Assembly: GCA_030640215.1 (NCBI GenBank)
Contig: DAOWJU010000234.1
Span: forward strand, 1-26,081
Source of the DNA: Desulfuromonadales bacterium
GTDB taxonomy: Bacteria > Desulfobacterota > Desulfuromonadia > Desulfuromonadales > BM103
Direction of reading: 5' to 3'
DNA: 26,081 nt
Shown in pieces: positions 713 to 18,966 of this stretch; positions within the stretch are counted from its first letter, which is position 1, and every line of letters begins with the position of its first letter. Position numbers and translations under genes: made by a program. The notes beneath the pieces were generated by a model. That model was not told where the DNA came from and ran no database searches. It saw nothing but the letters and a program-made list of their open reading frames with translations.

Positions 713-1093
713 ATGAAAAAGATTCTAGTCATCGATGATGATCGTCTCTTTCTTGAGTTCCTCACGAACTACGTAAGTGAACGCTATCCAAAGCTGGAAA
801 TTCTTGCATACGACAATCCACTGCAGGGTCTGGCCCAGATCAACTCCGACCTTGATCTACTCTTGCTCGACCTGGAAATGCCAAGTCTCGACGGTAGCAA
901 ACTGCTTGCCTACGCCATTGAAAAGGGCGTGGACAAACGGCGTATCATCATTCTCTCTGGCCGGGACGCCGACTACCTGCACGAATGTTTCCCCATGGGA
1001 CAATGTCTGGCAGTATTAAATAAAACCGAAGCCCGGCAGAAAGCGGTATTGGATATGGTTTTTGATGCTTTACAGAAGAAGGCTGAAAGCTAG
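713..1093 (+). CDS. Stand-alone response regulator receiver domain
   Basis: The 126-residue protein is a single CheY-like receiver with no output domain. The acidic pocket is D8-D9-D10 (VIDDD), the phosphoacceptor is D53 (LLLLDLEMP), the switch Ser is S82 (IILSG) and the conserved Lys is K104 (VLNKTE), so it should be phosphorylatable. It would act by protein-protein contact, as a relay or adaptor in a two-component or chemotaxis-like pathway; no histidine kinase is in the window, so the partner is unknown. The start ATG follows a purine-rich stretch (GGAGGCAGGGAGAAG) that lies somewhat far upstream, but the domain begins immediately, which supports this start. It is divergent from the partial gene at 1-560. 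The stop codon sits inside a perfect hairpin at 1083-1112. Confidence 0.9.
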   Translation: MKKILVIDDDRLFLEFLTNYVSERYPKLEILAYDNPLQGLAQINSDLDLLLLDLEMPSLDGSKLLAYAIEKGVDKRRIIILSGRDADYLHECFPMGQCLAVLNKTEARQKAVLDMVFDALQKKAES

Positions 1094-1112
1094 CAGGCGG
1101 TCTAGCTTTCAG
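1083..1112 (+). terminator. Perfect 11-bp hairpin at the end of the response regulator gene
   Basis: CTGAAAGCTAG and CTAGCTTTCAG form a perfect 11-bp inverted repeat with an 8-nt loop. The left arm includes the last codons and the TAG stop. There is no immediate T tract (the TTTT run comes about 12 nt later), so it is either an imperfect terminator or an mRNA 3'-end stabiliser. Confidence 0.45.
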
Positions 1113-1608
1113 GGCTGAAATGAAATTTTGACCTGACACAGGGGGGTACCGTTTATCGTGATTTTTAAGAAGGAAAAGGTGTCCTAGAAGTCCTAAGATG
1201 ATTTAGGAATTGCTGCTGGAATAACTTATAAGACAGTTGAGGGAAAGTGTCTCATTCACCTTGATCCTGACACACCCGTTTTCGTGTCTCTGGAGCGTGG
1301 TTTATAGGACACTTCTTAACGGCTTACAATAACCGGCGGTGACGCGAAGGTTCGGCCACCACCGGAATTTAGATTTTGTTTTTCAATTTTGCACAGAAGT
1401 ATTTTCCGTCCGTGTTGATTTCTTGTTTAGGCATTTTCGGGCGGACCCTCTTGAAATTGGGGAAAGCCTTACAGGAGTAAAAATCCCTTTTCACCAAGGG
1501 GCGATTAGATTTTTAATGGAGTCCTTGTAAAGCATTTATCTACTTGAACCACTACAGTTGATCACCGACGTGTTTCGAGGAGGATGAGGGGCCGACCGTT
1601 TCCCTTAC
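1113..1608. other. Gene-free stretch with clustered short repeats
   Basis: No credible gene is seen in about 500 bp. The pentamer GTGTC/GACAC occurs six times between 1135 and 1312, and CCTGACACA is directly repeated at 1132 and 1266. TTAAGAA (1165) plus GTGTCCTA (1179) faces TAGGACAC (1305) plus TTCTTAA (1313), giving a ~155-bp element with inverted ends. TCCTAA/TTAGGA makes a small hairpin at 1191-1208. A 9-bp hairpin lies at 1333-1341/1357-1365; its one mispair becomes G-U in minus-strand RNA, so it may end minus-strand transcription from the lipA side. This may be a degenerate mobile or regulatory element. A 63-codon open frame at 1339-1530 has no recognisable homology and a poor start. 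Confidence 0.4.
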
Positions 1609-2512
1609 TTAACGCCCGGCAAGGTCCTGTAGCATGCGCAGCTTGCCTTGGACGTAAGCCTCAGAGGCATGGTAGGAAGTGCGGACAAAGGGTCCGGCGG
1701 CGACGAAGTCGAAGCCGAGCTGCCGGCCCAGTTCGGCCCAGTTCGGCCCAGTAATCGAACTTCTCTGGCGGAATGTACTCCGTGACCGGCTGGTGCTGGT
1801 GGGTCGGGCTAAGGTACTGGCCTATGACCAGAATCCGCACCCCGACTGCGACCAGTTGTTGCAGGGCGATTCCAATTTCTTCATCCGTTTCGCCCAGACC
1901 GAGCATCAGCGAGGATTTGGTAATGATCTCGCTATCCCGACTCGCTTCTTCAAGAACCTGCAACGAGCGCTGAAAGTTGAAGTTTTCATGCCGATAGCTT
2001 GAACTGAGCTGCTTGACCACTTCAATGTTATGCGCCACGACATCCGGTTTGGCGCGCAACAATGTGTCAAGGGCCTGCCCCTGAAAATCAGGGATCAGTA
2101 CCTCCACCTTGGGGGAACTGTGCAAATCTCGAATGCAGCGGATGGCTTCGGCAAAAACCGAGGCGCCGGCATCGGCCAGATCATCACGGGTCACCGAAGT
2201 GATGACCACGTACTCAAGCCCCATCTCTGCCGCAGCATCGGCCACCCGTTGCGGCTCTCGGGGATCGATGCGGCCGCCGGGGTTACCGCGGGTGACGGCG
2301 CAGAAAGCGCAACCCCGGGTACAGGTATCGCCCAGAATCATGAAGGTCGCAGTTCCAGTACTCCAGCACTCCGCTTGGTTGGGGCAACTCGCTTCTTCGC
2401 AGACCGTGTGCAGGGAGCGACTCGCTAGGGCTTTGCGAACGCTGCGAAACTGCTCGCCAGCAGGCCGTTTTACCCGTAGCCAGTCCGGTTTTCGCGCGTG
2501 TGGAAGGTTCAT
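1609..2512 (-). pseudogene. lipA: Lipoyl synthase gene with frameshift near the 3' end
   Basis: LipA is a radical-SAM enzyme that inserts two sulfurs into octanoyl-GcvH or octanoyl-E2 to make lipoyl groups. Seen here are the auxiliary-cluster motif C38-x4-C43-x5-C49 and the SAM-cluster motif C64-x3-C68-x2-C71 (GDTCTRGCAFC). The start at 2512 is set by AAGGAG 6 nt upstream, 10 bp after the sdaA stop, so the two are probably cotranscribed. A tandem duplication of GTTCGGCCCA (1731-1740 and 1741-1750) shifts the frame. The broken product stops at 1661 (283 aa) with an Arg-rich tail ending PHFLPCL. Removing one copy restores a normal C-terminus with FVRTSYHA and a stop at 1609-1611 (297 aa). The lost R-T-S-Y motif holds the Ser known in the family to ligate the auxiliary cluster, so the shifted protein should be inactive. 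A sequencing or assembly error is a real alternative. Confidence 0.88.
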
Positions 2513-2522
2513 CCTGATCTCC

Positions 2523-3746
2523 TTATGACTTATCATTGGTGACCTTTGTACGTTGGCGATAGGCCTCGGCAATCCCGCCGCCGCCGGTTTCACGATAGAG
2601 GGACGGCAGCGCCTGGCCGGTCTCTTTCATCACCGCAACGATCTCGGTGAAGCTGATTTTATGCACGCCGTCGGAGAGCAGGGCAAACTGGCAGCAGCTC
2701 ATGGCGCGGGCAGCGGCGTGGGCGTTGCGCTCGATGCAGGGGATTTGTACCAGCCCTTGGACCGGATCGCAGGTCAGACCGAGATGATGTTCGAGGCCCA
2801 TTTCGGCGGCGTACTCGATCTGGCGGATAGAGCCGCCGTAGAGCTGGGTGGCGGCCGCCGCCGCCATGGCGCAGGCAGTGCCGACCTCGCCCTGGCAGCC
2901 GACCTCGGCACCGGAGATCGAGGCGTTGTGCTTGACCAGGTTGCCGACTAGGCCAGCGGTGGCCAGGCCGCGCAGGATATCTTCCGCGCCGCAGTTCAGG
3001 GTCTCGTCGAGATGGCGCAGTACCGCCGGCAGGACTCCGCAGGCACCGCAGGTCGGTGCGGTGACGATCAGTCCGCCCGCGGCGTTCTCCTCGGATACGG
3101 CATGGGCATAGGCACAAAGCAGTCCGTTCTGTTTGAATTCAGGTCCGTAGAGCGAAGCCTTGCGGCACATCGACTGGGCTTTGCGGGCCAGACCCAGACC
3201 CCCGTGCAGCACGCCTTCGGTGTTCAGCCCCCGCTCGAGGGCAGCGCTCATGGTCTGCCAGGCTTCAGCCAGAAAATCCCAGATCTCCTTGCCCTCACAG
3301 GCCTCGACGTATTCCCAAAAGGATTCACCCGATTCGAGGCAGTGGCTCAAAATCTGATCCATGGTCGGCAGACAGTCAATGGTATGGAGGCTTATCGAAC
3401 CGCCTTTCTCCTGTAAGGCACCACCACCGACACTGTAGACCTCCCAACTCTTAATGAGCTTGTCCGTCTCGTCCAAAGCTTCAAAAAACATGGCGTTGGG
3501 GTGCTCCGGCCGTTCGATCTCAGGCTTCCAGATCAAGCTCAGGGCCCGAGAGCCGAAGCTTTCTTCCAGCGCCTTATCGGTCAGGTGACCCTCTCCGGTG
3601 GCGGCCAGACTGCCGAACAGGGTCACCCGATAGAGAGATGCGTCGGGTACCTGGAGAAGAAAGTTCTCGGCCGCCTTGCGCGGGCCCATGGTATGGCTGC
3701 TGGATGGGCCTGTGCCTGTGCGATATAGCTCTTTTATCGATTCCAT
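2523..3746 (-). CDS. sdaA: L-serine ammonia-lyase (iron-sulfur serine dehydratase), single chain
   Basis: It deaminates L-serine to pyruvate and ammonia with a [4Fe-4S] cluster. The 407-residue chain joins the beta-like N-terminal domain ([11 protein letters not shown], residues 12-22) to the alpha-like catalytic domain. Cys284 (EVGCQGEVG), Cys326 (GLTCDPVQG) and Cys337 (QIPCIERNA) have the 42 and 11 residue spacing of the cluster ligands in characterised type 2 enzymes; the substrate loop [12 protein letters not shown] is at 229-240. It is a little shorter than the E. coli enzymes (~455). A strong AAGGAGGAACAG site precedes the ATG at 3746. Lying between glyA and lipA on the same strand, it gives the glycine operon an exit from serine to pyruvate. 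The cluster is oxygen-sensitive in the family, which fits an anaerobe. Confidence 0.95.
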
Positions 3747-3789
3747 CTGTTCCTCCTTCCGGGGAGGGTTTGCTTCTGTTGGCGGACGG

Positions 3790-3824
3790 CCTGAGCCGGG
3801 CGGCGGAACTCTGCCCGACTCAGG
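3790..3824 (-). promoter_or_regulatory. Intercistronic stem-loop, glyA-sdaA gap
   Basis: Twelve-base arms at 3790-3801 and 3813-3824 enclose an 11-nt loop. The single mispair (C/A in plus-strand sense) is a G-U pair in the minus-strand transcript, so the structure is complete only in the mRNA of the operon. No U tract follows, so it is more likely an mRNA-stability or processing element, or a leaky attenuator, than a full terminator. Confidence 0.5.
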
Positions 3825-3842
3825 TTGTTGGCCCGCGTTCTA

Positions 3843-5093
3843 CTACAAGCGGTGGCCGTAGAGGGGGAAGTCGAGACACAGCACCTTGACCTCAGCGCGG
3901 ATGCGGGCCAGTTCTTCCTCGTTATCAAGATTGTCGATGGCCCGCTTGATCCAGGCCGCCACTTTAACCATCTGCGGCTCCTTGAGACCGCGACTGGTCG
4001 CCGCGGGGGTGCCGATACGGATGCCGCTGGTCACGAAGGGAGAGCGGGTATCGTAGGGGACCGAATTCTTGTTGACCGTAATGCCGGCATCTTCCAACGC
4101 CTTCTCGGCCACCTTGCCGGTGATCTCACTGCCGCAGAAGTCGACCAGGATCAGATGGTTATCCGTTCCGCCGGAGACCAGCTTAAACCCGTGCTGGACC
4201 AACTCGGCGGCGAGGGTCTGGGCGTTTTTTACCACCTGGGCGGCATACTCCTTGAATTCCGGGGAGAGGGCTTCCTTGAAGGCCACCGCCTTGGCGGCGA
4301 TGACGTGCATCAGCGGGCCACCCTGGATACCGGGGAAGATACTGCTGTTGATCTTCTTGCCCCACTCCTCGGTGCAGAGGATCATCCCGCCGCGCGGTCC
4401 GCGCAGGGTCTTGTGAGTGGTGGTCGTGACAAACTGGGCATGGGGGACCGGGTTGGAGTGCTGGCCACCAGCCACCAGTCCGGCGAAGTGGGCCATATCG
4501 ACCATCAGGACTGCTCCGACCTCGTCGGCGATACGGCGGAAAGCGGCAAAATCGAGGGCGCGCGGATAGGCGCTGTAGCCAGCCACGATCAATTTAGGCT
4601 GATGCTCTTTGGCGAGGGCCAGCAATTCGTCGTAATCAATCCTGCCGGTCTCCTTACTGATACCGTAGGGGACGATATTGAAGAGCTTGCCAGAGAAATT
4701 GACCGGGGAACCGTGGGTCAGGTGGCCACCGTGCGAGAGGTTCATGCCCAGTACCGTGTCGCCCGGCTGACAGATTGTCAGGTAAACGGCCATATTGGCC
4801 TGGGAGCCGGAATGGGGCTGGACATTGACGTGCTCGGCACCGAACAGTTCCTTGGCCCGATCGATGGCGAGCTGTTCGGCAACATCGACCTCCTCGCAGC
4901 CGCCGTAGTAACGCTTGCCGGGGTAACCTTCAGCGTACTTGTTGGTCATGACCGAGCCCTGAGCCTCCATGACCGCTTCACTGACAAAGTTCTCCGAAGC
5001 GATAAACTCCAGGCCGTATTCCTGGCGCTTGGTCTCCTCCACAATGGTCTCGGCGATCGCCGGATCTACTTTACTGAGGTGCTTAATCGACAT
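3843..5093 (-). CDS. glyA: Serine hydroxymethyltransferase
   Basis: This PLP enzyme interconverts glycine plus methylene-tetrahydrofolate with serine and tetrahydrofolate. The 416 residues match the family length. Visible landmarks are the N-terminal EFIASENF (residues 29-36), [10 protein letters not shown] (57-65), [12 protein letters not shown] (89-100), [13 protein letters not shown] (198-210) and the PLP-binding Lys K228 in [16 protein letters not shown]. The ATG at 5093 follows a GGAG site about 10 nt upstream. It lies between gcvPB and sdaA. In this context it joins the methylene-THF made by the glycine cleavage system to a second glycine, giving serine for SdaA; it also supplies one-carbon units generally. 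The gaps on both sides hold hairpins, suggesting its mRNA segment may be processed or attenuated separately. Confidence 0.97.
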
Positions 5094-5173
5094 GACTTAT
5101 TTCTCCATTTTCGTTGTGGGATCAGCGGCAGGGCTTAACTGCCCGGCGCTCGTGCTCCCCATAACTGTCTGAT

Positions 5174-5211
5174 CGGGAGCCTGTCGGACAACATGGCCCG
5201 ACAGGCTCCCG
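5174..5211 (-). promoter_or_regulatory. Strong intercistronic stem-loop, gcvPB-glyA gap
   Basis: GGGAGCCTGTCGG (5175-5187) pairs perfectly with CCGACAGGCTCCC (5198-5210), extended one more pair by C5174-G5211, with a 10-nt loop. It begins only a few bases after the gcvPB stop on the minus strand. There is no U tract on that side, so it may be a leaky terminator or a 3'-end stabiliser separating gcv mRNA from glyA-sdaA-lipA mRNA. Confidence 0.55.
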
Positions 5212-5219
5212 GCATCATT

Positions 5220-6682
5220 TTATGCTTCTGCCCGGTAGCGCAGCACCGGTTTACGGGCCGCCGCTGTCTCATCGAGACGACTCAGCGCGGTCACGCTCGG
5301 TGCCTCAAGCAGCAGTTCGGGGTTGTTCTCGGCTTCTTCGGCAATCGCCAGCATGGCATCGCAGAATTCATCGAGCACCTCCATACTTTCGGTCTCCGTC
5401 GGCTCGATCATGATCGCCCCCTGAACCACCAGCGGGAAGTAGACGGTCGGCGGGTGGTAGCCATAGTCAATCAGACGCTTGGCCAGATCGAGTGTGTGAC
5501 AGCCACCGCCGAGGTTCTTGTCGGAGAAGACCGCCTCGTGCAGGGAGCGGTTTTTGTACGGCAGATGGTAAGTCTCCTCGAGGCGGGCACGGATATAGTT
5601 GGCGTTGAGCACCGCCATCTCGCTCACCTGCTTCAGCCCTTCGCCCCCCATGGTGAGGATGTAGGCCCAGGCGCGCAGCATGATGCCGAAGTTACCGTAA
5701 AAGGAGCGCAGGCGACCAATTGACTCCAGACGGTCGTAGTCGAGGCGGTATTTTTCGCCCTCCCTGACCACCACCGGCTTCGGCAGGTAGGGAATCAACT
5801 TTTTGTTGATGCCGACCGGGCCGGAACCGGGGCCACCGCCGCCGTGGGGTGTAGCGAAGGTCTTGTGCAGGTTGAAGTGCATGACGTCGACCCCCGCATC
5901 GCCAGGCCGGGCGATGCCCATCACAGCGTTGAAATTGGCACCGTCACAGTAAACCAGGCCGCCTCCTTCGTGGACGATCTCACATATCTTGCGAATATCC
6001 GCTTCGTAGATGCCCAGAGTGTTGGGGTTGGTGATCATCAGCGCGGCAACATCTTCGTTCATATGAGCTGCGACAGTCTCCGCAGTCAGAACGCCCGAGT
6101 CGCCTGAGGCGATCGGCACCACGTCGTAGCCGCACAGCGCTGCAGTCGCCGGGTTGGTGCCGTGCGCGGTATCAGGGATCAGCACTTTTTTCCGTGAACT
6201 CCCCTGGGCTTCATGCCATGCACGGATCATCAACATCCCGGCCAGCTCACCGTGGGCGCCAGCGGCAGGCTGCAGGGTAACAGCATCGAAGCCGGAGAGT
6301 TCTGCCAGTGCGACCTGCAGGTCGTACATCATGCCCAGGGCTCCCTGGCTCAGTCGCTCGGGAGTGTGGGGGTGGCAGCCGGCCAGGCCAGGCAGGCGCG
6401 CCACGACCTCGTTGACCTTGGGGTTGTACTTCATGGTACAGCTCCCCAGGGGGTAAAAGCCGGTGTCGACACCATAGTTCCAGGTCGAAAGACGGGTGAA
6501 GTGACGCACCACGTCGACCTCGGAAACCTCTGGGAAACCTTCGATCTCCAGTCTGCTCAACTCTTCCGGCAGTGTTGACGGGGGCACATCGAGCGCCGGC
6601 AGACTGTAACCCTTGCGGCCTGGATCGCTGTGTTCGAAAATCAGTTTTTCTTTCAGGATAAGTCCTCTGGTTCCGATCCGGT

Positions 6683-6686
<4 letters not shown>
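5220..6686 (-). CDS. gcvPB: Glycine dehydrogenase (decarboxylating) subunit 2, P-protein C-terminal half
   Basis: With GcvPA it forms the P-protein, which decarboxylates glycine and passes the aminomethyl group to lipoyl-GcvH. The 488 residues include the PLP Lys K275 in HFNLHKTFATPHGGGGPGSG and the glycine-binding TLQPAAGAHGELAG (137-150). The start is fixed by AAAGGAGG inside the end of gcvPA and by the 4-bp ATGA overlap (6683-6686), a sign of translational coupling to give equal amounts of the two subunits. The two-subunit form is usual in deltaproteobacteria, Gram-positives and archaea, unlike the single-chain enterobacterial P-protein. Confidence 0.97.
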
Positions 6687-8032
<1,346 letters not shown>

Positions 8033-8045
8033 CTGTCACCTTCCT

Positions 8046-8429
8046 CTACTGTTCAGCAATACAGGAACGATAGGCCTCGGCGTCCATCAGGGCTTCTACC
8101 TGAGCGGCATCGCTCAATTTGATCTTTACCATCCAGGCATCGTCATAGGGGGAACTATTGACCGAGTCCGGAGCGTCGGGCAAACCCTCGTTGACCTCGA
8201 CCACCTCGCCGGAAACCGGCGCGTAGAGGTCAGAGACGGCCTTAACCGATTCGACCACACCAAAGGTCTTGCCGGCGTCTATGTTGCTTCCAACCTCGGG
8301 TAGTTCGACGAAGACCACATCGCCCATGGCGTCCTGAGCAAAATCGCTGATGCCGATGGTTGCGATACCCTCCTCAACCAGAATCCATTCATGGTCCTCG
8401 GAATATTTAAGTTCGTCACGAATTTCCAT
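8046..8429 (-). CDS. gcvH: Glycine cleavage system H protein (lipoyl carrier)
   Basis: GcvH shuttles the aminomethyl intermediate between P-, T- and L-proteins on a lipoyl arm. The 127 residues match the family; the lipoylated Lys is K63 in [21 protein letters not shown] strong AAGGAGGATAGACA site precedes the ATG at 8429. It lies between gcvT and gcvPA. Because its function needs lipoylation, the damaged lipA at the end of the operon matters: unless another LipA, a lipoate ligase or an intact allele exists, this protein would stay unlipoylated. Confidence 0.97.
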
Positions 8430-8486
8430 TGTCTATCCTCCTTGAGTTACCTGTCTGTCGGGCAGGCTTAAATAGTTGATTGTTGC

Positions 8487-9575
8487 CTAAACAAAGGGGG
8501 TCTTGACCACTTCGGCCGCGACCCTGCGATTACGGATGCCGATGCTGACTTCGGTGCCCACCGGGTGGTGTCCCGTTGCGATCAGGGCCAGGGCGATGCC
8601 GACCTTGAGGGAGGGGGACATGGTACCGCTAGTGACGACCCCAACCTCTTCGTCGCTGACGAAAACGGGGTAATTTTCGCGAGGCACGCCGGGCTCGGTC
8701 ATACGCAGGCCAACCAAGCGTCGGGGCACACCCGCCTCCTTCATCCGGCACAACGGCTCCTTGCCGATAAAGGAATGCTTGTCTAGCTTGGTGATCCAGG
8801 CGATTCCACCCTCGAGCGGGGTAATCTGCGAGGAGAGTTCGTGTCCGTAAAGGGCATACTTCTTCTCCTGTCGCAGTGTGTCACGGGCACCGAGGCCGAT
8901 GGGCTGAAGGCCGTCAGATATCCCCGTTTCCATCAACGCATGCCAGATTTTCTCGACGTGCTCAGGAGCAAAGTAGAGCTCGAAGCCGGACTCCCCAGTA
9001 TAACCGGTGCGCGAGATAACGGTTTTGACCCCTGCAACCTCACCCTCGACGAAGTTGTAAAAGACCAGCGACGCGAGGTCGCTGTCGGTCAGTCGCCCAA
9101 GGATAGCGTCAGCGGTAGGCCCCTGAAGAGCGAGCTGGGCGTAGGAGTCGCTGAGATTGGTCAGGCTGACATCAATGAACCCTCCCTTCTCCAGCACGCT
9201 CTGCATCCAGGCGAAATCCTTCTCGATATTGGAGGCATTGACACAGAACAGATAACGGTCATCAGCAAAGCGGTAGAGGGTCAAATCATCGACCACGCCG
9301 CCGTTTTCGTAGCACATGGCCGAGTACTGCACCTGACCATCGACCAGTTTCGCGGCATCGTTGGTGGTCAGTCGCTGGATGTAGTCGAGCGCTCCCTTGC
9401 CACGCACCTCGATCTCACCCATATGAGAAACATCGAAGAGCCCGGCGGCATTGCGTACCGCGAGATGTTCATCGATAACACCAGTGTACTGAACCGGCAT
9501 ATCCCAGCCGCCGAAATCGACCATCCGGGCGCCCAGTTCTCTGTGAACCTTGTTCAAGGGGGTTGTTTTCAGCAT
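8487..9575 (-). CDS. gcvT: Aminomethyltransferase, T-protein of the glycine cleavage system
   Basis: It transfers the methylene carbon from aminomethyl-lipoyl-GcvH to tetrahydrofolate, releasing ammonia. The 362 residues match the family. Landmarks are MVDFGGWDMPVQYTGVIDEH (residues 18-37), GLFDVSHMGEIEV, RTGYTGESGFELYF in the middle, and the C-terminal barrel with VGLRMTEPGVPR and GVVTSGTMSPSLKVGIAL. ATG at 9575 follows GAGAGGAACC. It is the second gene of the operon, 71 bp after lpdA, in a gap that holds a small hairpin, and 57 bp before gcvH. Confidence 0.97.
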   Translation of the reverse strand: MLKTTPLNKVHRELGARMVDFGGWDMPVQYTGVIDEHLAVRNAAGLFDVSHMGEIEVRGKGALDYIQRLTTNDAAKLVDGQVQYSAMCYENGGVVDDLTLYRFADDRYLFCVNASNIEKDFAWMQSVLEKGGFIDVSLTNLSDSYAQLALQGPTADAILGRLTDSDLASLVFYNFVEGEVAGVKTVISRTGYTGESGFELYFAPEHVEKIWHALMETGISDGLQPIGLGARDTLRQEKKYALYGHELSSQITPLEGGIAWITKLDKHSFIGKEPLCRMKEAGVPRRLVGLRMTEPGVPRENYPVFVSDEEVGVVTSGTMSPSLKVGIALALIATGHHPVGTEVSIGIRNRRVAAEVVKTPFV

Positions 9576-9596
9576 GGTTCCTCTCTTTTAGAAACG

Positions 9597-9615
9597 GTGA
9601 CTCCTGAAGAGTCAC
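9597..9615 (-). promoter_or_regulatory. Intercistronic stem-loop, lpdA-gcvT gap
   Basis: GTGACTC (9597-9603) and GAGTCAC (9609-9615) form a perfect 7-bp stem with a 5-nt loop. It lies between the lpdA stop and the gcvT ribosome site. No U tract follows on the minus strand. Possible role in mRNA processing or differential expression. Confidence 0.4.
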
Positions 9616-9646
9616 TAGTCATTGGTTCACAATCTATATACGCAAA

Positions 9647-11044
9647 TCAGAGATGTAATGCTTTATCGAAGGCAGCGAGCACTGATTCGTGCATCATCTC
9701 GGAGAGGGTCGGGTGAGCGAAGATGGTGGACATCAGCTCCTCTTCTGTCGATTCAAGATTCTGGGCGATCCCGTAGCCCTGGATCATCTCGGTGACCTCG
9801 GTGCCGATCATGTGGGCTCCCAGCAGCTTGCCGGTACCGGCATCGAAAATGGTCTTGACCATACCCTCGGTTTCTCCCAGGGCGATCGCCTTGCCGTTGG
9901 CCGTGAAGGGAAATTTGCCAACCTTGATGTCGTGACCACGCTCCCTGGCTTGATCCTCGGTGAGGCCGACGTTCGCGACCTGGGGGTGGGTGTAGGTACA
10001 GTAGGGGATCCTGTCCCGCTCCAGGGGATGAACCTTTTCAAGCCCGGCAATCTTCTCGACGCAGATCACCCCCTCATGGCTAGCCTTGTGGGCTAGGCAG
10101 GGCGCCCCGGTCACGTCGCCGATGGCATATACACCCGGCTGGTCGGTCTGGAGCCACTCGTTGACCTTGATTGCGCCTTTTTCGATCCGAACTCCGGTCT
10201 TCTCTAGCCCCAGATTTTCGGTGTTGCCGACAACCCCCATGGCCAGTAGTACTCGATCAACGGTGATCTGCTCGCACTCCCCTTCGACCTCAATGGTGAC
10301 GGTGACGGAGTCATCCTGCTTATCCATCGCCTTGAGCATGGTGCCGGTTCGGATGGCGAGCCCTTTTCTTTTCAACTCCTTGGCCAGCATGCTGGAGATT
10401 TCCTCGTCTCCGGCTGGCAGAACCTGGGGCAACGCTTCCACCACGGTGACCTTTGTTCCCAGTTCGTTGTAGAAGCTGGCAAATTCGAGGCCGATAGCAC
10501 CGGCACCGACAACCAGCAGGCTCTCAGGGAAAGACTCGGGAGTCATCGCTTCCTTGTAGGTCCAGACCAGTTTGCCGTCGGCTTCGAGCCCCTCTAACTG
10601 CATGGGCCGCGCACCCGTAGCCAACAGGATGTGGTCGGCGGCAACTTCACTCAGCTCGCCACCCTTTTCAACGCTGAGCAGTCCAGGTTCCGCTATTTTT
10701 GCGGTCCCCTCAATAAGGGTGATGTTGTTTTTCTTCAGCAGTAAACCAACCCCCTTCTGCAAGCGGCTGGAGATTCTGCGTGAGCGTTTGACCACGTCCT
10801 CGATATCGAATCCGACATTTGACACCTTGAGCCCATAGCGTTTGGCGTTCTTTATATTCCGGTAGACTTCGGCTGAGCGAAGCAAGGCCTTGGTCGGGAT
10901 GCAGCCCCAGTTCAGGCAGATGCCGCCGAGATGTTCACGCTCCACAAGTGCGGTATTGAATCCTAGTTGAGCGCCACGAATCGCCGCCACGTAACCACCG
11001 GGGCCCCCTCCAACAATAACCAAATCGAACGATTGATTCTTCAC
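9647..11044 (-). CDS. lpdA: Dihydrolipoyl dehydrogenase (L-protein)
   Basis: The FAD disulfide oxidoreductase reoxidises dihydrolipoyl-GcvH with NAD. From the GTG start at 11044 the protein has 465 residues, normal for the family; an AAAGGAAC site lies 8 nt upstream, while the longer in-frame ATG at 11119 has no ribosome site. Seen are the FAD-binding VIVGGGPGGYVAA (9-21), the redox-active C43-x4-C48 in GGICLNWGCIPTKALL, the NAD-binding VVGAGAIGLEFASFY, the second FAD motif YAIGDVTGAPCLAHKASHEG and the C-terminal catalytic FAHPTLSE. It is the promoter-proximal gene of the operon, about 160 nt downstream of the predicted sigma-54 transcription start. Being inside the gcv operon, it probably serves GcvH rather than 2-oxoacid dehydrogenases, though sharing is possible. 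Confidence 0.96.
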   Translation of the reverse strand: MKNQSFDLVIVGGGPGGYVAAIRGAQLGFNTALVEREHLGGICLNWGCIPTKALLRSAEVYRNIKNAKRYGLKVSNVGFDIEDVVKRSRRISSRLQKGVGLLLKKNNITLIEGTAKIAEPGLLSVEKGGELSEVAADHILLATGARPMQLEGLEADGKLVWTYKEAMTPESFPESLLVVGAGAIGLEFASFYNELGTKVTVVEALPQVLPAGDEEISSMLAKELKRKGLAIRTGTMLKAMDKQDDSVTVTIEVEGECEQITVDRVLLAMGVVGNTENLGLEKTGVRIEKGAIKVNEWLQTDQPGVYAIGDVTGAPCLAHKASHEGVICVEKIAGLEKVHPLERDRIPYCTYTHPQVANVGLTEDQARERGHDIKVGKFPFTANGKAIALGETEGMVKTIFDAGTGKLLGAHMIGTEVTEMIQGYGIAQNLESTEEELMSTIFAHPTLSEMMHESVLAAFDKALHL

Positions 11045-11202
11045 GATACTGTTCCTTTGATAAAAGACTAGATGAAAGGTTGCGTCGAACCCGATTTTAG
11101 CATCAACCATAAAGAACAATGAGCGACTGACTATCTAGGGATCAGGTACCCTAAAAGAACGGGATTTCCTAAATCCTCCAATTGCGATTGCATGTTCTCT
11201 TT
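11045..11202 (-). other. Long 5' leader of the lpdA-gcv mRNA
   Basis: About 160 nt separate the predicted sigma-54 transcription start (near 11203) from the lpdA GTG. It holds a small perfect hairpin, GGATTT-CCT-AAATCC (11162-11176), and the dyad-like GGGTACCTGATCCC. I looked for a glycine riboswitch, a common leader of gcv operons, and could not see its conserved core. The leader may have some other role or none. Confidence 0.35.
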
Positions 11203-11214
11203 GCGTCTCATAAC

Positions 11215-11229
11215 GCAAGGTCCTTGCCA
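11215..11229 (-). promoter_or_regulatory. Sigma-54 (-24/-12) promoter of the lpdA-gcv operon
   Basis: On the minus strand the sequence reads TGGCAAGGACCTTGC. The consensus is TGGCACG-N4-TTGC; GG and GC are separated by exactly 10 nt and only one consensus base differs (A for C). It lies about 185 bp upstream of the lpdA GTG, in the same direction, and downstream of dyad sites and an enhancer-binding protein gene, all as expected for a sigma-54 promoter. Confidence 0.8.
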
Positions 11230-11404
11230 ACTTACGGGAAACCAGATCTACACACTTCAGAAAATCTTTTAGATGAACCTTAGGTAAGGTTCAAACAGCG
11301 TTAAATCCTGGACAAGGGGAGATTGAGCGGGGCTAGGGGGAAATAGCACTTGGTAATGATCTGGCCAGTGCGCAAGACGGCCACAAATGGAGACGGGCAG
11401 GAGT

Positions 11405-11422
11405 TGGAATGAATCTGTTCCA
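11405..11422. promoter_or_regulatory. Dyad site, probable upstream activator sequence 1
   Basis: TGGAATGAATCTGTTCCA is an 18-bp dyad (TGGAA at the left, TTCCA at the right). Its centre is about 210 bp upstream of the predicted sigma-54 start, the usual range for enhancer-binding protein sites. A close relative lies 70 bp further upstream at 11475. Likely binder: the adjacent ACT/AAA+ regulator. Confidence 0.6.
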
Positions 11423-11469
11423 TTATTAAGTCAGTTTTGGTGTCAAGATGCCTGTTTGTACCAATCTTG

Positions 11470-11516
11470 CAGGGTGGAACGAAATCATTCCGCTGGTCTG
11501 TTTTCGTTCCACCCTG
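11470..11516 (-). terminator. Perfect 15-bp inverted repeat overlapping the regulator gene's 3' end
   Basis: AGGGTGGAACGAAA (11471-11484) pairs with TTTCGTTCCACCCT (11502-11515), extended by C11470-G11516, loop 17 nt. One arm lies in the last codons and the loop starts with the TGA stop of the enhancer-binding protein gene. No U tract follows on the minus strand. It may end or stabilise the regulator mRNA, insulating it from the lpdA operon, and it contains activator-like site 2. Confidence 0.5.
11475..11492. promoter_or_regulatory. Dyad site, probable upstream activator sequence 2
   Basis: TGGAACGAAATCATTCCG matches site 1 in the TGGAAYGAA start and the TTCC end. A weaker third copy, TGGTCTGTTTTCGTTCCA, with only the right half well matched, follows at 11494-11511, centre-to-centre 19 bp. 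The pair may allow cooperative binding of regulator oligomers. Confidence 0.5.
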
Positions 11517-13098
11517 AAGCATATTTCTTCATCCTATTGAGTAGGGCGGTGTGGGTGAGCCCAAGAAGCCGTGCTGCTTGGCGCTTGCTCCGGGATTGCT
11601 TCAGGGCCGCAGCGATATACTGTTTCTCAATACGTTCGACCAGGACTGGCAGAGTCGTTAGGCCCAACTCCCCGGTATCGATCTCTTTCGTTTCCTGAAT
11701 TGCCTTGCCGATCTCTTTTCCGAAGAGGATGTACTCGCCTTCAATTTGAGGAGCGTCGCTAAGGATAGCGGCTCGTTCGATGACATTTTTCAGCTCCCGG
11801 ATGTTGCCTGGCCAACTGTGCTGGCGCAACTTTTCCATGGCCCCCGACGACAGCGATTGCCAGTTCTTTTCGAGCCGCAAGTTGAGGTGAAAAAGAAATT
11901 GTTCCACAAGAAGCGGGATATCTTCTCTCCGTTCTCGCAGCGGCGGGGTATAGATCGGAAAGACACTGACACGGTAATAGAGGTCCTCACGAAACAATTT
12001 CTTCTCCACCATCTCCGCAAGGTTTTTATTGGTGGCGGTAATTATTCGAGCACTGATGGGTATCTCATGACTCCCGCCAATCTTCCGGATCTTTTTTTCC
12101 TGAATCACACGCAGCATCTTAGCCTGCAAGTTCAGTGGCATCTCAGCGATCTCATCAAGAAAAATGGTCCCGCTCTTAGCAACTTCAAAAAGACCGGTCT
12201 TTCCATTCTTTTCGGCTCCAGAAAAGGCCCCGCCGACATAGCCAAACAGCTCGCTTTCGAGTAGAGCTTCCGGCAGGGCGGCGCAGTTGATCGGGACAAA
12301 CAGACCGCTACGCCCGCTTTCGGTATGGATGGCACTGGCAAAGAGTTCTTTTCCAGTGCCACTCTCGCCATCGATGGAGACAACCGTATCGGCGCGAGCA
12401 ATCTTCTGGGCGAAGGTAATGGCCTCCATGATTGCCGGGCTGCGGCCGACCATATCGCTAAAACTGAACTGACTCGACGGGGCAACCGCGGTGGAGAGTT
12501 CTTTGATCTCCTGCATGTCCTTCATAATTTCAACGGCACCGACGATCCGCCCTGAAGAACCCTTGATCGGTTTTCCGGTGGCGAGAAACTGAAATCGCCC
12601 GTTAGGGGCAATCAGGTTCTTTTTTACATTAGTAAAAGACTTTCCTGACAGACATTCCTCCAACTTCTGGTCAGCCCGTTTCAAATCGCGGATGTTCGTG
12701 CCGGTTACCTCGCGGTCATTGCAGTCCAAAATATTCCGGGCAACCCGGTTAATGATGACCACCTCGCCCTGATTGTCGATGCCCAAAATCCCGTCGCTGA
12801 TACTGTCCAGCGCAACCTGAAGCCGTTTTTCACGTTCTTCCCGGGGGAGGGTCTGGATACTGGAAACTTCCCTGAGATCGGGAATGGTTTTCAATTTGTC
12901 GAGAAAAGAGTCCCAGTCGATCTCGGGGGCACCTTCTGCCTCCAGATAGATGGTCGTCTGGTCACCCTGAACGTCCATTTCAAAGAAGGCGATGTTGATC
13001 CTCTGTTCGGACATCAGGCTAGCAACATCAGCAGCAATCCCGACCCGGTCAGAAAAGATGAGTTGTAGCTTGCGATTCAACTTTATGGGTTGGTCCAT
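11485..13098 (-). CDS. Sigma-54 enhancer-binding protein, ACT-PAS-AAA+-HTH (TyrR-like layout)
   Basis: A transcription activator of 537 residues from the ATG at 13098. Order: ACT-like ligand domain (about 7-85; LNRKLQLIFSDRVGIAADVA), PAS domain (about 92-195), AAA+ domain (about 214-445) with Walker A GESGTGKE (244-251), sigma-54 contact loop GAFSGA (290-295) and Walker B GTIFLDE (310-316), then a Fis-type helix-turn-helix (about 503-526, KRQAARLLGLTHTALLNRMK). ACT domains often bind amino acids, so glycine or serine is a reasonable but unproven effector. GAFSGA keeps the loop with Ser for Thr, so it should still engage sigma-54, unlike E. coli TyrR. It lies directly upstream of the gcv operon, same strand, and probably binds the dyads there. 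A longer start (ATG at 13137 or TTG at 13152) is possible, but 13098 fits the domain start. Confidence 0.92.
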   Translation of the reverse strand: MDQPIKLNRKLQLIFSDRVGIAADVASLMSEQRINIAFFEMDVQGDQTTIYLEAEGAPEIDWDSFLDKLKTIPDLREVSSIQTLPREEREKRLQVALDSISDGILGIDNQGEVVIINRVARNILDCNDREVTGTNIRDLKRADQKLEECLSGKSFTNVKKNLIAPNGRFQFLATGKPIKGSSGRIVGAVEIMKDMQEIKELSTAVAPSSQFSFSDMVGRSPAIMEAITFAQKIARADTVVSIDGESGTGKELFASAIHTESGRSGLFVPINCAALPEALLESELFGYVGGAFSGAEKNGKTGLFEVAKSGTIFLDEIAEMPLNLQAKMLRVIQEKKIRKIGGSHEIPISARIITATNKNLAEMVEKKLFREDLYYRVSVFPIYTPPLRERREDIPLLVEQFLFHLNLRLEKNWQSLSSGAMEKLRQHSWPGNIRELKNVIERAAILSDAPQIEGEYILFGKEIGKAIQETKEIDTGELGLTTLPVLVERIEKQYIAAALKQSRSKRQAARLLGLTHTALLNRMKKYASGWNENRPAE

Positions 13099-13398
13099 GC
13101 TTTTTATCCCAGCCTTGTTGAGTTGCAACCGAGCCATACCCCAGCTTGGCAACCAGTTGGTCAGTCAGCTTTGTCCTGATGTCGACCAGGGGTACGACTT
13201 GGCAGTCGCCACCTCAAGCGGCTCTTTCCCTTGTATATGTATCGTCTAATTACTCACTCGAGTGTCGGAATCGTCATCTGAATTCTCCATAGAGAATTTA
13301 AATAACCGACTTCGGTATCAAACGGGAAATGTAATTGTTATCAGGCGGTGAGTTTTGGACCGGATGATATTTTGCCAGCACAGTCGGTTGTCATATAA
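13099..13398. other. Upstream region of the enhancer-binding protein gene
   Basis: No gene is recognised. The palindrome CACTCGAGTG lies at 13255-13264 and the hairpin AATTCTC-CATA-GAGAATT at 13281-13298. On the minus strand a GGAG site precedes an 8-codon mini-frame (13277-13254, encoding MTIPTLE). These could belong to the regulator's leader and operator. No clear -35/-10 pair was fixed. Confidence 0.3.
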
Positions 13399-13596
13399 AT
13401 GAAGATACAGTCAAAAGTTTTGACCAGAGTCAAGGTAAAGAAGGGTACGAAGTCTTGCACCATGACGATCAGTTGTGCTTATTCTGATACCTCACTGTTT
13501 GAGGCGGGGCAGCTCATTATTTCCACCCAACCAAAGGTGTTGCGGTCCAGAATAATGAGAGTAAATGCCCAGACCATCACTCTGGATAGAGACTAA
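13399..13596 (+). CDS. Doubtful small hypothetical protein
   Basis: A 65-codon frame between the convergent-free 5' side of the regulator gene and the end of the amidohydrolase gene, on the opposite strand to both. The C-terminal half alternates hydrophobic and polar residues (AGQLIISTQPKV, RIMRVNAQTITLDRD) like a small beta-barrel, which is why I list it. There is no good ribosome site, and its start is Met-Lys-Ile right after AT-rich sequence. A weak -24/-12-like element (GG at 13362, GC at 13374) lies just upstream. It may be a real small gene, the tail of a lost gene, or chance. Confidence 0.3.
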   Translation: MKIQSKVLTRVKVKKGTKSCTMTISCAYSDTSLFEAGQLIISTQPKVLRSRIMRVNAQTITLDRD

Positions 13597-13603
13597 TTGT
13601 GTC

Positions 13604-13631
13604 AAAAAAGGCAGGGTACTTAGTATACTGC
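13604..13631 (-). terminator. Terminator after the amidohydrolase gene
   Basis: On the minus strand, GCAG/CTGC outer pairs and TAC/GTA inner pairs form a short interrupted stem followed by CTTTTTTG. It begins about 20 nt after the amidohydrolase stop at 13650, fitting the end of the transporter operon. The stem is weak but the U tract is good. Confidence 0.5.
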
Positions 13632-13649
13632 TCAAAATAAACTACTTGG

Positions 13650-14858
13650 TTAAGGCACATGGCGATCTAGTACGATCTGGGCCAAAAGCGCGCTACCTGT
13701 CACCAGAGATTGGTCGTCAAAATTGAACTTCCCACTGTGCAAGGGGATCGGATGCTGGCCTTCTGGTGTTACACCGACCCTGATAAAGGCACCCTCTGGT
13801 ACTTTTTGTAAATAGTGTGAAAAATCCTCAGATCCCATACATGGCTGGGGCAACAAAGCAAAAGCTTCCGAAGGCATAATTCGACTGGCGGCAAGTTGGA
13901 CAGCTTCGACACCGGAAGTCGAGTTGCACAGTGATGGGACCAAATCCTCTATGATTAAATTGCCGCCACACCTATTCGTCTTAGTTACTCCTTCGACAAC
14001 TCTTTCGATGGCCGCCTTTAGACAGGCCTCAACATCCTTGTTAAGGCAGCGAATAGTGCCGGTAATGATGACCTTCTCTGGCATAATGTTAAATGCCTCT
14101 CCACCATTGATGGTGCAAACAGACAAGACCGCGCTATCCAGAGCACTCAGTTCCCGGCTAACTACGCAATTGAGGCGTTGTACTATTTCGCATGCAGTCA
14201 ACGTAGCATCTGAGGCTTGATGAGGGTAAGCACCATGACTTCCCGAGGAGGTGACGCTAATTTCGAATCGTCCGGCGGAAGCCATGTATCTTCCGGGATA
14301 TACACCTATCTGGCCAGTTGTCAGGCCTGGCCAACCATGACAAGCGTAGATGCGATCAACCCGAGGATTGTCCAGGACCCCTTGGGCGATCATACTTTTA
14401 GCTCCTCGCAGTGTTTCTTCGCCCGGTTGGAATATCAGCTTGACCACACCTCCGAAACTGGCCCGCAAGCGGGACAAAATTATTGCTGCCCCAAGCACCA
14501 TGGTCGTGTTGCCATCATGGCCACAAGCGTGCATTACTTGGGGATGTACTGAACTGTATTCCAGCCCTGTCATTTCCTTTATGGGTAGCGCGTCGATATC
14601 CCCTCTTAGAGCTGTTACTAAAGACGAATCAAGAGTGGCGTGTCCTTCTATGACACCAAGAACTCCGGTCTCTGCTTCAAGAGGAATGAAATCGATTCCT
14701 GATTGGCTCAAGAGGTTTCTAATGGCCTGAGACGTTCGCTTTTCCTGAAAACTTAATTCTGGGTGTCGGTGCAAATCGCGTCTAAAAGCGGCTAAAGTAT
14801 TAGCCAATTCTTTTGCCAATGCATTAACCTGTACAGAGAGTTTCTGCATTTTATTCAT
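13650..14858 (-). CDS. M20 family amidohydrolase (N-acyl amino acid or hippurate hydrolase-like)
   Basis: A zinc-dependent amidohydrolase of the M20D group (aminoacylase, hippurate hydrolase and IAA-amino acid hydrolase relatives), 402 residues. It would cleave an N-acyl amino acid into acid and amino acid. Metal-site landmarks are FRRDLHRHPELSFQE (25-39), MHACGHDGN (109-117; Cys112 and His114), QPGEE (144-148), CHGWPG (173-178) and the C-terminal PLHSGKF. There is no signal peptide, so it is cytoplasmic. ATG overlaps the tctA-type stop by 4 bp (ATGA), so it is translationally coupled to the transporter and probably acts on the imported substrate. The exact substrate cannot be told from sequence; dipeptides or hydantoin-like compounds are alternatives. 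Confidence 0.9.
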   Translation of the reverse strand: MNKMQKLSVQVNALAKELANTLAAFRRDLHRHPELSFQEKRTSQAIRNLLSQSGIDFIPLEAETGVLGVIEGHATLDSSLVTALRGDIDALPIKEMTGLEYSSVHPQVMHACGHDGNTTMVLGAAIILSRLRASFGGVVKLIFQPGEETLRGAKSMIAQGVLDNPRVDRIYACHGWPGLTTGQIGVYPGRYMASAGRFEISVTSSGSHGAYPHQASDATLTACEIVQRLNCVVSRELSALDSAVLSVCTINGGEAFNIMPEKVIITGTIRCLNKDVEACLKAAIERVVEGVTKTNRCGGNLIIEDLVPSLCNSTSGVEAVQLAASRIMPSEAFALLPQPCMGSEDFSHYLQKVPEGAFIRVGVTPEGQHPIPLHSGKFNFDDQSLVTGSALLAQIVLDRHVP

Positions 14859-16330
14859 ACCGTTTTTCTTCTTTTCATTTTTATGAGAATAACCACTGCC
14901 GTAACAGCCATCAACAGGAACGCCACTGAAATAGGACGGGTAAAAAAGATACCAATACTTCCATCGGAAAGGGTCAAACTCTGGCGAATAGATCGCTCGC
15001 CTATAGGTTCAAGAATGAAAGCAATCAGCAAAGGTGCCACAGGAAAGCTGAGCTTACGCATGAAGTAGGCCACTACGCCAAATATCAGCATGATCCAGAG
15101 GTCTGTAAAGCTTGCGTTGAAACCAAAGACCCCTACAGTGCAGAGAACCATCGTGACCGGATATACGATAGAACTTGGTACTTTTGCGATAAGTGCAAAA
15201 AAGCGTATAGATAAACGCCCCACTAGCGGCAAAAAAACAATAGCTATCAGCATAGCCGCGAAGATCGCATAAACAATGGAAATATTTTCCTTGAAGAGCG
15301 CTGGTCCTGGTGTGAGCCCATGGATGAGAAATGCACCCAGTAAAACTGCAGTTGTCACATCACCGGGGATACCTAGAGCCATCAAAGGGATCAAGGCTCC
15401 ACCACAGGTCGCGTTATTTCCAGACTCCGCTGCCGCAATACCTTCAATGGCTCCCTTCCCAAACTTTTCAGGATGTTTTGATACTCTTTTTGTTTCTGCG
15501 TAAGTCAAAAAGGCCGCTGGTGTTGCGCCGAGACCAGGCAGAGCACCAATCAACAATCCAATGATGCCTCCCCTGAAAATGGTCGGCAGACAGTATTTAA
15601 TGTCGGCCCAGGACGCCGAATCATTACCAACTGTAGCCATTTTTGTGGTTTTGAGGGCCTTGCCTTCTGACTGGATGAGAACCTCCGAAACGGCAAACAT
15701 GCCGATCATAAGACCCATCATATTGATACCGTTAAAGAGAGTCACCCACCCAAACGTGAACCTTGGGGTGGAAATCATAGGGTCCAACCCTACAGTTGCA
15801 AGCAAAAATCCTGCTGCAGCGGCCAGAACACCTTTGATAATTGAATCGCCGGAAACACCAGCTACAACAGCCAGCGAAAAAATGATAAGAGAAGAGTATT
15901 CAGGTGGACCGAACTTTAAAGAAAACCGGGCGAGATAAACAGCCAGAAAAATCAGACAAATGGTAGCAAAGGCGTCGGCTAACACCGAAGACCATAACGC
16001 GATGCCCATAGCTCTGCCAGCTTGCCCTTTCTTAGCCATCGGGAATCCATCAAAAACTGTCACCGCTGCGGCAGGGGCACCTGGGGTATTAATGAGTATG
16101 GCAGGTATTGACCCACCAAACAGGCAACCTTTGTAGGTGCCTAGTAGTATGCAAAATGCAGTGATTGGTGAAAGACTGTACGTTAAAGGAATGATAAGCG
16201 CGATGCCCATAGTACCGGTCAAACCAGGGATCGCTCCCATAAATACCCCGTATGCAACACCAATAAAAATTGCACCGACATTGAGGGGGGTCAGCACCAT
16301 CTCAAACCCGATCATAAGTTCATTCAACAT
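14855..16330 (-). CDS. TctA-family large membrane subunit of a tripartite tricarboxylate transporter
   Basis: The main permease of a TTT-type secondary transporter, 491 residues with about ten to twelve hydrophobic segments. Landmarks are the two Gly/Pro-rich repeats, GAIPGLTGTMGIALIIPLTY (32-51) and GALPGLGATPAAFLTYAETK, plus GGSIPAILINTPGAPAA and GGALIPLMALGIPGDVTTAV, all typical of TctA. It works with the small membrane subunit (8 bp upstream) and a periplasmic binding protein. Despite the name, TTT systems carry many carboxylates and aromatic acids; here the coupled amidohydrolase suggests an N-acyl amino acid or similar acid. The codon and base use are more AT-rich than in the gcv operon. 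Confidence 0.95.
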   Translation of the reverse strand: MLNELMIGFEMVLTPLNVGAIFIGVAYGVFMGAIPGLTGTMGIALIIPLTYSLSPITAFCILLGTYKGCLFGGSIPAILINTPGAPAAAVTVFDGFPMAKKGQAGRAMGIALWSSVLADAFATICLIFLAVYLARFSLKFGPPEYSSLIIFSLAVVAGVSGDSIIKGVLAAAAGFLLATVGLDPMISTPRFTFGWVTLFNGINMMGLMIGMFAVSEVLIQSEGKALKTTKMATVGNDSASWADIKYCLPTIFRGGIIGLLIGALPGLGATPAAFLTYAETKRVSKHPEKFGKGAIEGIAAAESGNNATCGGALIPLMALGIPGDVTTAVLLGAFLIHGLTPGPALFKENISIVYAIFAAMLIAIVFLPLVGRLSIRFFALIAKVPSSIVYPVTMVLCTVGVFGFNASFTDLWIMLIFGVVAYFMRKLSFPVAPLLIAFILEPIGERSIRQSLTLSDGSIGIFFTRPISVAFLLMAVTAVVILIKMKRRKTV

Positions 16331-16338
16331 GATTATCT

Positions 16339-16815
16339 CTATTCCAATATGGTTTTTAAGCCATAGGTAAATAAAACGTAAACAACTCCGGTAAGAACCA
16401 GGCTGATGGTTGCTATCCGTTGCGGTCTCCTCTGGCCAAAAATCAATAATAACAAAGCAACACAGGGAGGAGTCGCAATAAGAAAACCGACATGTTCAAA
16501 TAATAAAAAATAAATCGAAATTATAATCACGCTCAAAAGTGGCCCAGCCTTTGGCGTTTCCTGAGTCTGAAAGGTAAAAAGGACTGTAAATCCCTTCCAT
16601 TTTTCGTGATAAAATAGTTGTTTGAGAGAGATGATGCTCAGGAAAAAACTTAATATCAGAAGTACTGTAGCTGCCAGGTTTGGGAAAAACCTAGGCGAGA
16701 GCTCAGCATTAGAACTCTCGGTAACATAATTGGGAATTAAATAAAAGAGAATTACCAGGGAGAGCCCGAAGAGGAACAACCCGCTTAAAAAGTCCATTTT
16801 TTTTTGGCTGTACAT
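16339..16815 (-). CDS. TctB-family small membrane subunit of the transporter
   Basis: 158 residues from ATG at 16815 (GAGGA about 10 nt upstream; a GTG three codons earlier is too close to that site). Four hydrophobic segments are visible: around FLSGLFLFGLSLVILFYLIP, the segment after RFFPNLAATVLLILSFFLSI, LLSVIIISIYFLLF, and the final stretch TISLVLTGVVYVLFTYGL. SPRFFPN near residue 40 is a typical TctB motif. TctB proteins are poorly conserved and are identified mainly by this topology and by lying between the TctC- and TctA-type genes, as here. Confidence 0.88.
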   Translation of the reverse strand: MYSQKKMDFLSGLFLFGLSLVILFYLIPNYVTESSNAELSPRFFPNLAATVLLILSFFLSIISLKQLFYHEKWKGFTVLFTFQTQETPKAGPLLSVIIISIYFLLFEHVGFLIATPPCVALLLLIFGQRRPQRIATISLVLTGVVYVLFTYGLKTILE

Positions 16816-16837
16816 GATCAACACGTCCTCGATTACT

Positions 16838-16872
16838 TAGTTGGCCCAGGGCTGTCGACCCCGGGCCAACTA
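16838..16872 (-). promoter_or_regulatory. Intercistronic stem-loop after the binding-protein gene
   Basis: TAGTTGGCCC (16838-16847) and GGGCCAACTA (16863-16872) form a perfect 10-bp stem. It lies in the 62-bp gap between the tctC-type stop and the tctB-type start. Such stem-loops after binding-protein genes commonly protect the upstream mRNA, so that the binding protein is made in excess over the membrane subunits; that role is inferred here. Confidence 0.55.
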
Positions 16873-16877
16873 TTCAT

Positions 16878-17837
16878 TTACTTGGAGGCCAAGCCAGCGT
16901 CCCGAATGATTTTACCCTGTTGTTCGTAAATTTCTTTAACATAAACCCCAAAGTTTTTTGAATCTAAGTAGGCTCTTTTAATCATGATTTTGTCCATCAA
17001 TTCAATGAATTGAGGATCGTCCATCGCTTTTTTGATGGCGGTTTCCAATCGGGCCACCACTGACGCAGGCATGTCCTTTGGCCCAGCGATCCCAAGACAG
17101 GAAGGCGCAACAATGTCATAACCCAATTCTTTGAGTGTTGGCACGTCAGGGAATTCATTCATCCTTTCATCATCGAATACAGCCAGAAGGCGCATTTCCC
17201 CAGCCTTAACCTGAGGAACCCACTCGGTCACACCGGCGACCGCAGCAACATGGCCACCCAGGGTGGCAGTAACGGCTTGCGAACCGTTCTTAAAGGGTAT
17301 GGCCTTCCAGTCAGCACCGGTTGCTCTTTTTAGTCTCTCCATAACCAAATGCTGAGGATTTCCGGAACCAGACAATCCATACGAAACTTTTCCGGGATTC
17401 TCTTTTGCGTACTTGATTAGATCATCGAGAGTTTTAAAAGGCGAATCCGCTTTGACTACCAAAGCATAATGCCATAACCCATAACGTGCAATAAATGTAA
17501 AGTCAGTTAATGGATTGAATGTAAGTTTCTGCATGTGCGGTGTGATGGCCGCCGGGGCCGTGACAAGGGTGAAAATATTGTAGCCATCTGGTTTGTTGGT
17601 GGCTGCGATGCTGGCGGCTACAGAACCACCACCACCGGGCTTGTTTTGGACAACCACAGTTTGCCCCAGATCCTTCTCCAGAATAGTCGCTAGCAAGCGA
17701 GCACTCATGTCTGTTGTGCCACCTGCGCCGTAAGCAACCGTCAGCTTAATCGGTTTATTAGGCCAATCAGCGGCGAATCCATTAGTAGTTACCAAAACAG
17801 CAACCAATACCAGTAATCCAAACACACGTTTCGACAT
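16878..17837 (-). CDS. TctC/Bug-family periplasmic substrate-binding protein
   Basis: The solute receptor of the TTT transporter, 319 residues. A Sec signal peptide is clear: Lys/Arg at 3-4, a hydrophobic core VFGLLVLVAVLVTT, and a likely cut after GFA near residue 22. The mature part starts DWPNKPIKLTVAYGAGGTTD, then VVVQNKPGGGGSVAAS, both hallmark Bug motifs (substrate carboxylate is held by main-chain and Ser/Thr groups in this region). AAGGAG lies 7 nt before ATG 17837. It is the first transporter gene after the RpiR-type regulator (77-bp gap). Ligand unknown. Confidence 0.95.
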   Translation of the reverse strand: MSKRVFGLLVLVAVLVTTNGFAADWPNKPIKLTVAYGAGGTTDMSARLLATILEKDLGQTVVVQNKPGGGGSVAASIAATNKPDGYNIFTLVTAPAAITPHMQKLTFNPLTDFTFIARYGLWHYALVVKADSPFKTLDDLIKYAKENPGKVSYGLSGSGNPQHLVMERLKRATGADWKAIPFKNGSQAVTATLGGHVAAVAGVTEWVPQVKAGEMRLLAVFDDERMNEFPDVPTLKELGYDIVAPSCLGIAGPKDMPASVVARLETAIKKAMDDPQFIELMDKIMIKRAYLDSKNFGVYVKEIYEQQGKIIRDAGLASK

Positions 17838-17914
17838 AGACTTCTCCTTTAAAGTTGAATGTTAAACTACACGTCAACACGACATCCTCTGCGCCACCTT
17901 TAAAAATTGTTCAG

Positions 17915-18811: not shown

Positions 18812-18883
18812 AATAAAACACCTTTCTGTAACAAATGGTCCACAATATATTTCACACGAAGATAAACATGTCAACACAAACTT

Positions 18884-18949
18884 GTCCTAACTGTTAGTCC
18901 AAGATAGTAATGTCCCCTTTGTCCAAGTTACAAATGTCCTCTTATCAAA
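18884..18949 (+). repeat. GTCC-rich subterminal repeats, probable IS end remnant
   Basis: GTCC occurs five times in 56 bp (18884, 18897, 18912, 18921, 18936). AATGTCCCCTTTGTCCAA (18909) and AATGTCCTCTTATCAAA (18933) are imperfect direct repeats 24 bp apart. They sit directly in front of a transposase-derived gene, where transposase binding repeats of an insertion sequence end would be. The other end of the element is not seen. Confidence 0.4.
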
Positions 18950-18966
18950 TTCTGAAAGGGGACCAG

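Follow-up and report, generated by a model that had tools for sequence, protein, structure and literature searches.

The window analysed here, a stretch of 26,081 nucleotides that constitutes contig C198 of the draft genome G000 (347 contigs, 82.94% complete, 3.47% contaminated), carries a row of serine- and glycine-catabolic genes that begins with a sigma-54 activator and ends with a lipA whose reading frame is broken as assembled. The genes that precede lipA in this row, and the segment in which the row lies, are as follows.

1087..19750, no strand assigned: inserted segment of ~18.7 kb; the genome G010 aligns up to 1086 and resumes at 19751, the two parts being 89 bases apart in G010
2523..3746, minus strand: sdaA, L-serine ammonia-lyase (TIGR00720 over cut-off)
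3843..5093, minus strand: glyA, serine hydroxymethyltransferase (NF000586 over cut-off)
5220..6686, minus strand: gcvPB (NF003346 over cut-off)
6683..8032, minus strand: gcvPA (NF001696, 648.5 bits, cut-off 364)
8046..8429, minus strand: gcvH, lipoyl carrier protein (TIGR00527 over cut-off)
8487..9575, minus strand: gcvT (TIGR00528, 405.7 bits, cut-off 235.85)
9647..11119, minus strand: lpd, dihydrolipoyl dehydrogenase (TIGR01350 over cut-off)
11485..13152, minus strand: sigma-54 activator with a PAS domain, first gene of the conserved order (best NCBIfam match PrdR, under cut-off)

The gene row and the inserted segment

The order regulator-lpd-gcvT-gcvH-gcvPA-gcvPB-glyA-sdaA-lipA is identical in the window and in the genomes G045 and G106, and the activator at its head also gives a weak ACT match that falls under the Pfam cut-off. 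Searched at E ≤ 1e-85, the 136 genomes of the order include four that match this LipA, among them that of the window itself; none of the 10 genomes of the same genus (G001–G010) does so. The gene row itself was observed in three of these four. The nearest lipA relatives with readable DNA are those of G045 (73%), G106 (72%) and G096 (68%). The 10-kb lipA contig of G096 gave no gcv match; its sdaA match is split in two and is located ~4.3 kb away from lipA, on the opposite strand. The lpd of G106 (L138, 3381–4460) matches over residues 182–413 only, at 59%, and looks degenerate; here, too, a redundant gene of such a row may have been lost.

The segment from 1087 to 19750 is bordered by a response regulator on one side and a cvfB-like gene on the other, and is absent from the same-genus genome G010 at an otherwise conserved site. 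As G010 has only 89 bases between the aligned flanks, ~18.7 kb is inserted in the window; in three further genomes of the genus (G001, G002 and G003) the two genes that flank this site are separated by 2.8 to 3.4 kb. The cargo comprises the serine/glycine row, an M20 peptidase, a tripartite tricarboxylate transporter and an RpiR-type regulator. The G+C content of the whole insert (52.9%) is near that of its flanks (49.9% and 51.0%), with 58.6% at 2523–11119 and 47.2% at 11485–18877, such that by G+C only the gcv part stands out from the flanks. We considered and rejected a contaminated bin as the origin of the window: with 93% identity to G010, the Uup next to the insert places the contig in the genus, and the flanking DNA is 86–87% identical to G010. 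Unless the contig is chimeric, the gene row is thus an insertion into this genome. Near the right end of the insertion, the frame 18910–19638 joins N-terminal helix-turn-helix domains, which we take to be transposase-like, to a resolvase end with a helix-turn-helix, and appears to be the fused remains of mobile elements. An imperfect 24-base tandem repeat (2.0 copies, 18897–18943) overlaps the start of this frame.

The repeat tract and the lipA frame

Three features describe the end of the row.

1609..1740, minus strand: C-terminal part of LipA, read in a different frame, RTSYHA then a stop; 1 of 43 residues differs from P0003, the closest public protein
1661..2512, minus strand: broken lipA as assembled, 283 aa, with a 23-residue Arg-rich tail lacking R-x-S-Y; ATG at 2512; LIAS_N and Radical_SAM domains
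1724..1752, minus strand: perfect period-10 tract, the frame-breaking duplication in lipA (Tandem Repeats Finder: 2.9 copies, 100% matches)

The unit GTTCGGCCCA is present twice in tandem in the window sequence, at 1731–1740 and 1741–1750, and the full tract extends over 1724–1752. The 9-base word CGGCCCAGT (plus strand) occurs at 1724, 1734 and 1744 and at no other plus-strand site in the window, and the longest exact offset match inside the tract is 19 bases. At offsets of 5–30, a run of at least 18 consecutive matches is found once in the window and not at all in a total of 20 first-order Markov surrogates, thus the repeat tract is beyond chance. None of the three lipA orthologues read at the DNA level has kept the perfect tandem repeat: at the tract site their offset matches extend over no more than 5, 6 (G106) and 5 bases, as against 19 in the window. 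Two CGGCCCAGT words stand 10 bases apart because the codons of Y-W-A-E-L-G-R produce them, and from the short matches in the orthologues the repeat in the window is therefore regarded as a by-product of the codons and not as a kept switch.

Upstream of the break, the lipA frame is otherwise intact-looking. The N-terminal CX4CX5C of the auxiliary cluster is present (CEEASCPNQAEC; LIAS_N 32.9 bits, cut-off 27), as are the CxxxCxxC of the radical SAM cluster (CTRGCAFC) and the core (Radical_SAM PF04055, 61.3 bits), and the longer frame 1661–2593 reaches 313.2 bits with the TIGR00510 lipA model (cut-off 310.25). The C-terminal end of the broken frame reads WAELGRTGPAARLRLRRRRTLCPHFLPCL. The C-terminal R-S/T-S-Y is not in frame 1661–2512 and sits in a different one at 1609–1740, where the normal LipA end, WAELGRQLGFDFVAAGPFVRTSYHASEAYVQGKLRMLQDLAGR followed by a stop, is read. 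The original prediction, made on the letters of the window, had claimed a 10-bp tandem duplication that breaks the lipA frame and removes this motif, and each of these points agrees with what is found, the public protein P0003 holding both parts as one protein. It had further proposed that the last ~35 residues become an unrelated Arg-rich tail; the tail is there, and its size is amended, as a stretch of 37 P0003 residues gives way to one of 23.

Relatives of the broken LipA and the second lipA of the genome

P0003, a 297-aa protein whose cluster comprises 5 member sequences (1 contig, longest contig 1571 bases), has the normal C-terminal end and is 99% identical to the window protein over 254 residues. 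Three of the first 254 residues differ and one of the last 43, and beyond residue 254 the window frame first diverges at residue 261. A scan of genome contigs with P0003 gave at least 80 loci, with at most 53% identity among the matches listed and with the window's own and very near genomes possibly omitted; L055 is the only locus used from that scan. Among the 120 homologues listed (8000 scored), R-x-S-Y occupies its C-terminal place in 118, the other two having RTSH and RTSF, and R-x-S is kept in all 120. As natural relatives carry the normal end, we regard it as ancestral.

The Arg-rich end, by comparison, was found in no protein when residues 244–283 were used as the query (54 candidates at E ≤ 10, the P0003 cluster being represented by P0003 itself). 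The one candidate of the 54 that matched is P0003 itself (E 0.18, 43% of the region), a coverage that fits the 17 residues before the break, and the relative with a conserved Arg-rich end that would have spoken against a lesion is accordingly not among these candidates, since P0003 has the normal end. One out-of-frame reading of the G045 lipA also starts with TGP and is Arg-rich, so that the character of the tail is what the frame alone gives.

A second lipA of G000 lies in two pieces, one at 11540–12220 of contig C160, running up to the contig end, and the other, a C-terminal part with RSSYHA, on contig C31; the ends of these two contigs have exactly 141 bases in common. The C160 piece matches PRK05481 at 313.9 bits (cut-off 203) and, being incomplete, falls under the TIGR00510 cut-off (297.1 against 310.25). 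In a tree that 16 of the 17 chosen loci entered (L005 was dropped, its start-finding motif being unmatched), this piece falls within a set of 13 housekeeping LipA rows from the genus and order (support 100/100). A second gcvT-gcvH-gcvPA-gcvPB cluster of G000 is on contig C209, and a single candidate for lipoate attachment was found.

L037, 1384–2190 of contig C66: LplA-B_cat protein, the only one found in G000, beside accC (TIGR00514)

This protein resembles lipoate ligases and lies far below the cut-offs of the named subfamilies. The second lipA and the ligase-type gene that the original prediction had thought worth seeking elsewhere in the genome are thus represented by the lipA pieces on C160 and C31 and by the one LplA-B_cat protein on C66. 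Its implication that GcvH would go without lipoylation, in turn, is not supported in a genome with a second lipA, an LplA-B_cat protein and a second gcvT-gcvH-gcvPA-gcvPB cluster. The housekeeping LipA of G000 is presumably able to serve both GcvH proteins, and the break in the lipA of the row probably matters little for the cell.

Consequence and origin of the lesion

According to a preprint on E. coli LipA (PMC13232139), formation of the lipoyl cofactor needs Arg306 and Ser308 of RSSY; Ser308 supplies the fourth ligand to the auxiliary cluster, and the remaining RSSY residues are described as not essential. The earlier claim that the Ser of R-S/T-S-Y ligates the auxiliary cluster is in agreement with this role of E. 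coli Ser308. As the assembled protein is without the R-T-S-Y tail, a loss of lipoyl synthase activity is expected, and judging from its sequence the assembled LipA should not be capable of forming the lipoyl cofactor.

We consider it likely that a recent slippage disabled a redundant, imported lipA paralogue, the loss being tolerated under cover of the housekeeping LipA. In such a course of events, slipped-strand mispairing at two 9-base direct repeats that stand 10 bases apart would lengthen lipA by a single 10-base unit, and the added unit would shift the frame and thereby remove the C-terminal R-T-S-Y tail. As the housekeeping LipA can presumably serve both GcvH proteins, the loss of the lipA of the row would be tolerated. 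The gene in the window appears to be an extra LipA paralogue at the end of a putatively imported serine/glycine-catabolic row, and its lesion is probably recent, given that no other lesions are visible in the gene.

The extra unit might instead have been introduced during sequencing, library preparation or assembly, or represent the minor allele of a mixed population whose main allele is intact, and the existence of the near-identical intact protein P0003 as well as the origin of the sequence in a 347-contig draft speak for such a reading, which we nevertheless hold to be unlikely. The word lengths usual in de Bruijn assemblers exceed 19 bases. The longest exact offset match of the tract, at 19 bases, is under these lengths, and a loop in the assembly graph is not expected. 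The 141-base overlap between C160 and C31, the single contig overlap found, would fit a word length of 141 that spans the tract, an estimate from one pair of contigs; the right end of the window has no contig overlap. In addition, no second version of window positions 1500–2100 was found in the genome.

The original prediction had also offered a reversible slipped-strand switch; lipA would then be a contingency locus, inactivated when a 10-base unit is gained and restored when it is lost. With 10 bases the unit is no multiple of three, a perfect tract of 2.9 copies can contract, and a change of tandem repeat copy number, in promoters, is a described route of phase variation (PMC12817950). However, the perfect repeat is absent from the three orthologues read (5, 6 and 5 bases versus 19), and the switch is not supported. 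Switch loci usually have more units than the 2.9 copies seen here, and phase switching rarely targets a biosynthetic enzyme, both of which count against this explanation; we judge it very improbable. Still less credence is given to the more elaborate proposal that the row has a dedicated LipA for its own GcvH, with the 10-base repeat as a reversible switch that would render the row dependent on or independent of the host LipA. It is finally conceivable, albeit barely, that the altered end is functional, either by recoding that restores the frame or by an Arg-rich tail that gives LipA a new role, for which the intact-looking frame before the break may be cited. Against a functional end stand the search with residues 244–283, where the only match among 54 candidates (P0003, 43% of the region) fits the part before the break, the Arg-richness that looks like a by-product of the frame (the TGP start of the out-of-frame G045 reading), and the junction, at which no X-XXY-YYZ slippery heptamer is seen by eye.

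Recent slippage in a redundant lipA is thus the explanation we favour, and the lesion looks like an ordinary loss and not a mystery, with the enzyme-level reading sound. Under this explanation, a lesion in a seemingly indispensable enzyme turns ordinary after a search of the whole genome, the gene being a spare, and the wider point would be that an imported glycine/serine module brings its own lipoyl synthase. Among the literature matches listed, no title names an lpd-gcv-glyA-sdaA-lipA row or such a lipA lesion.

In comparison with known slipped-strand frameshifts by short tandem duplication, the lesion has the same make-up, one extra unit between direct repeats and of a length that is not a multiple of three; nothing in it is distinctive, and a single event is seen. 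The gcv-linked LipA proteins of Geothermobacter hydrogeniphilus (P0009; G045, contig C21) and of G106 fall with the window LipA in a well-supported part of the tree, which also includes public proteins of unread context, and share its gene order, and G045, like G000, has a separate housekeeping lipA too. Unlike the window, the lipA genes of G045 and G106 have a frame that is continuous to RTSY and no perfect tandem repeat at the site. With respect to LipA in general (TIGR00510; solved relatives 8trw, human LIAS, 5exi–5exk and 4u0o), the window LipA shares both Cys motifs and the core, whereas as assembled it is without the R-S/T-S-Y tail, which bears the fourth auxiliary-cluster ligand. Over residues 7–285, the intact P0003 can be aligned with human LIAS (8trw), and the RTSY of P0003 falls on the RSSY of LIAS.
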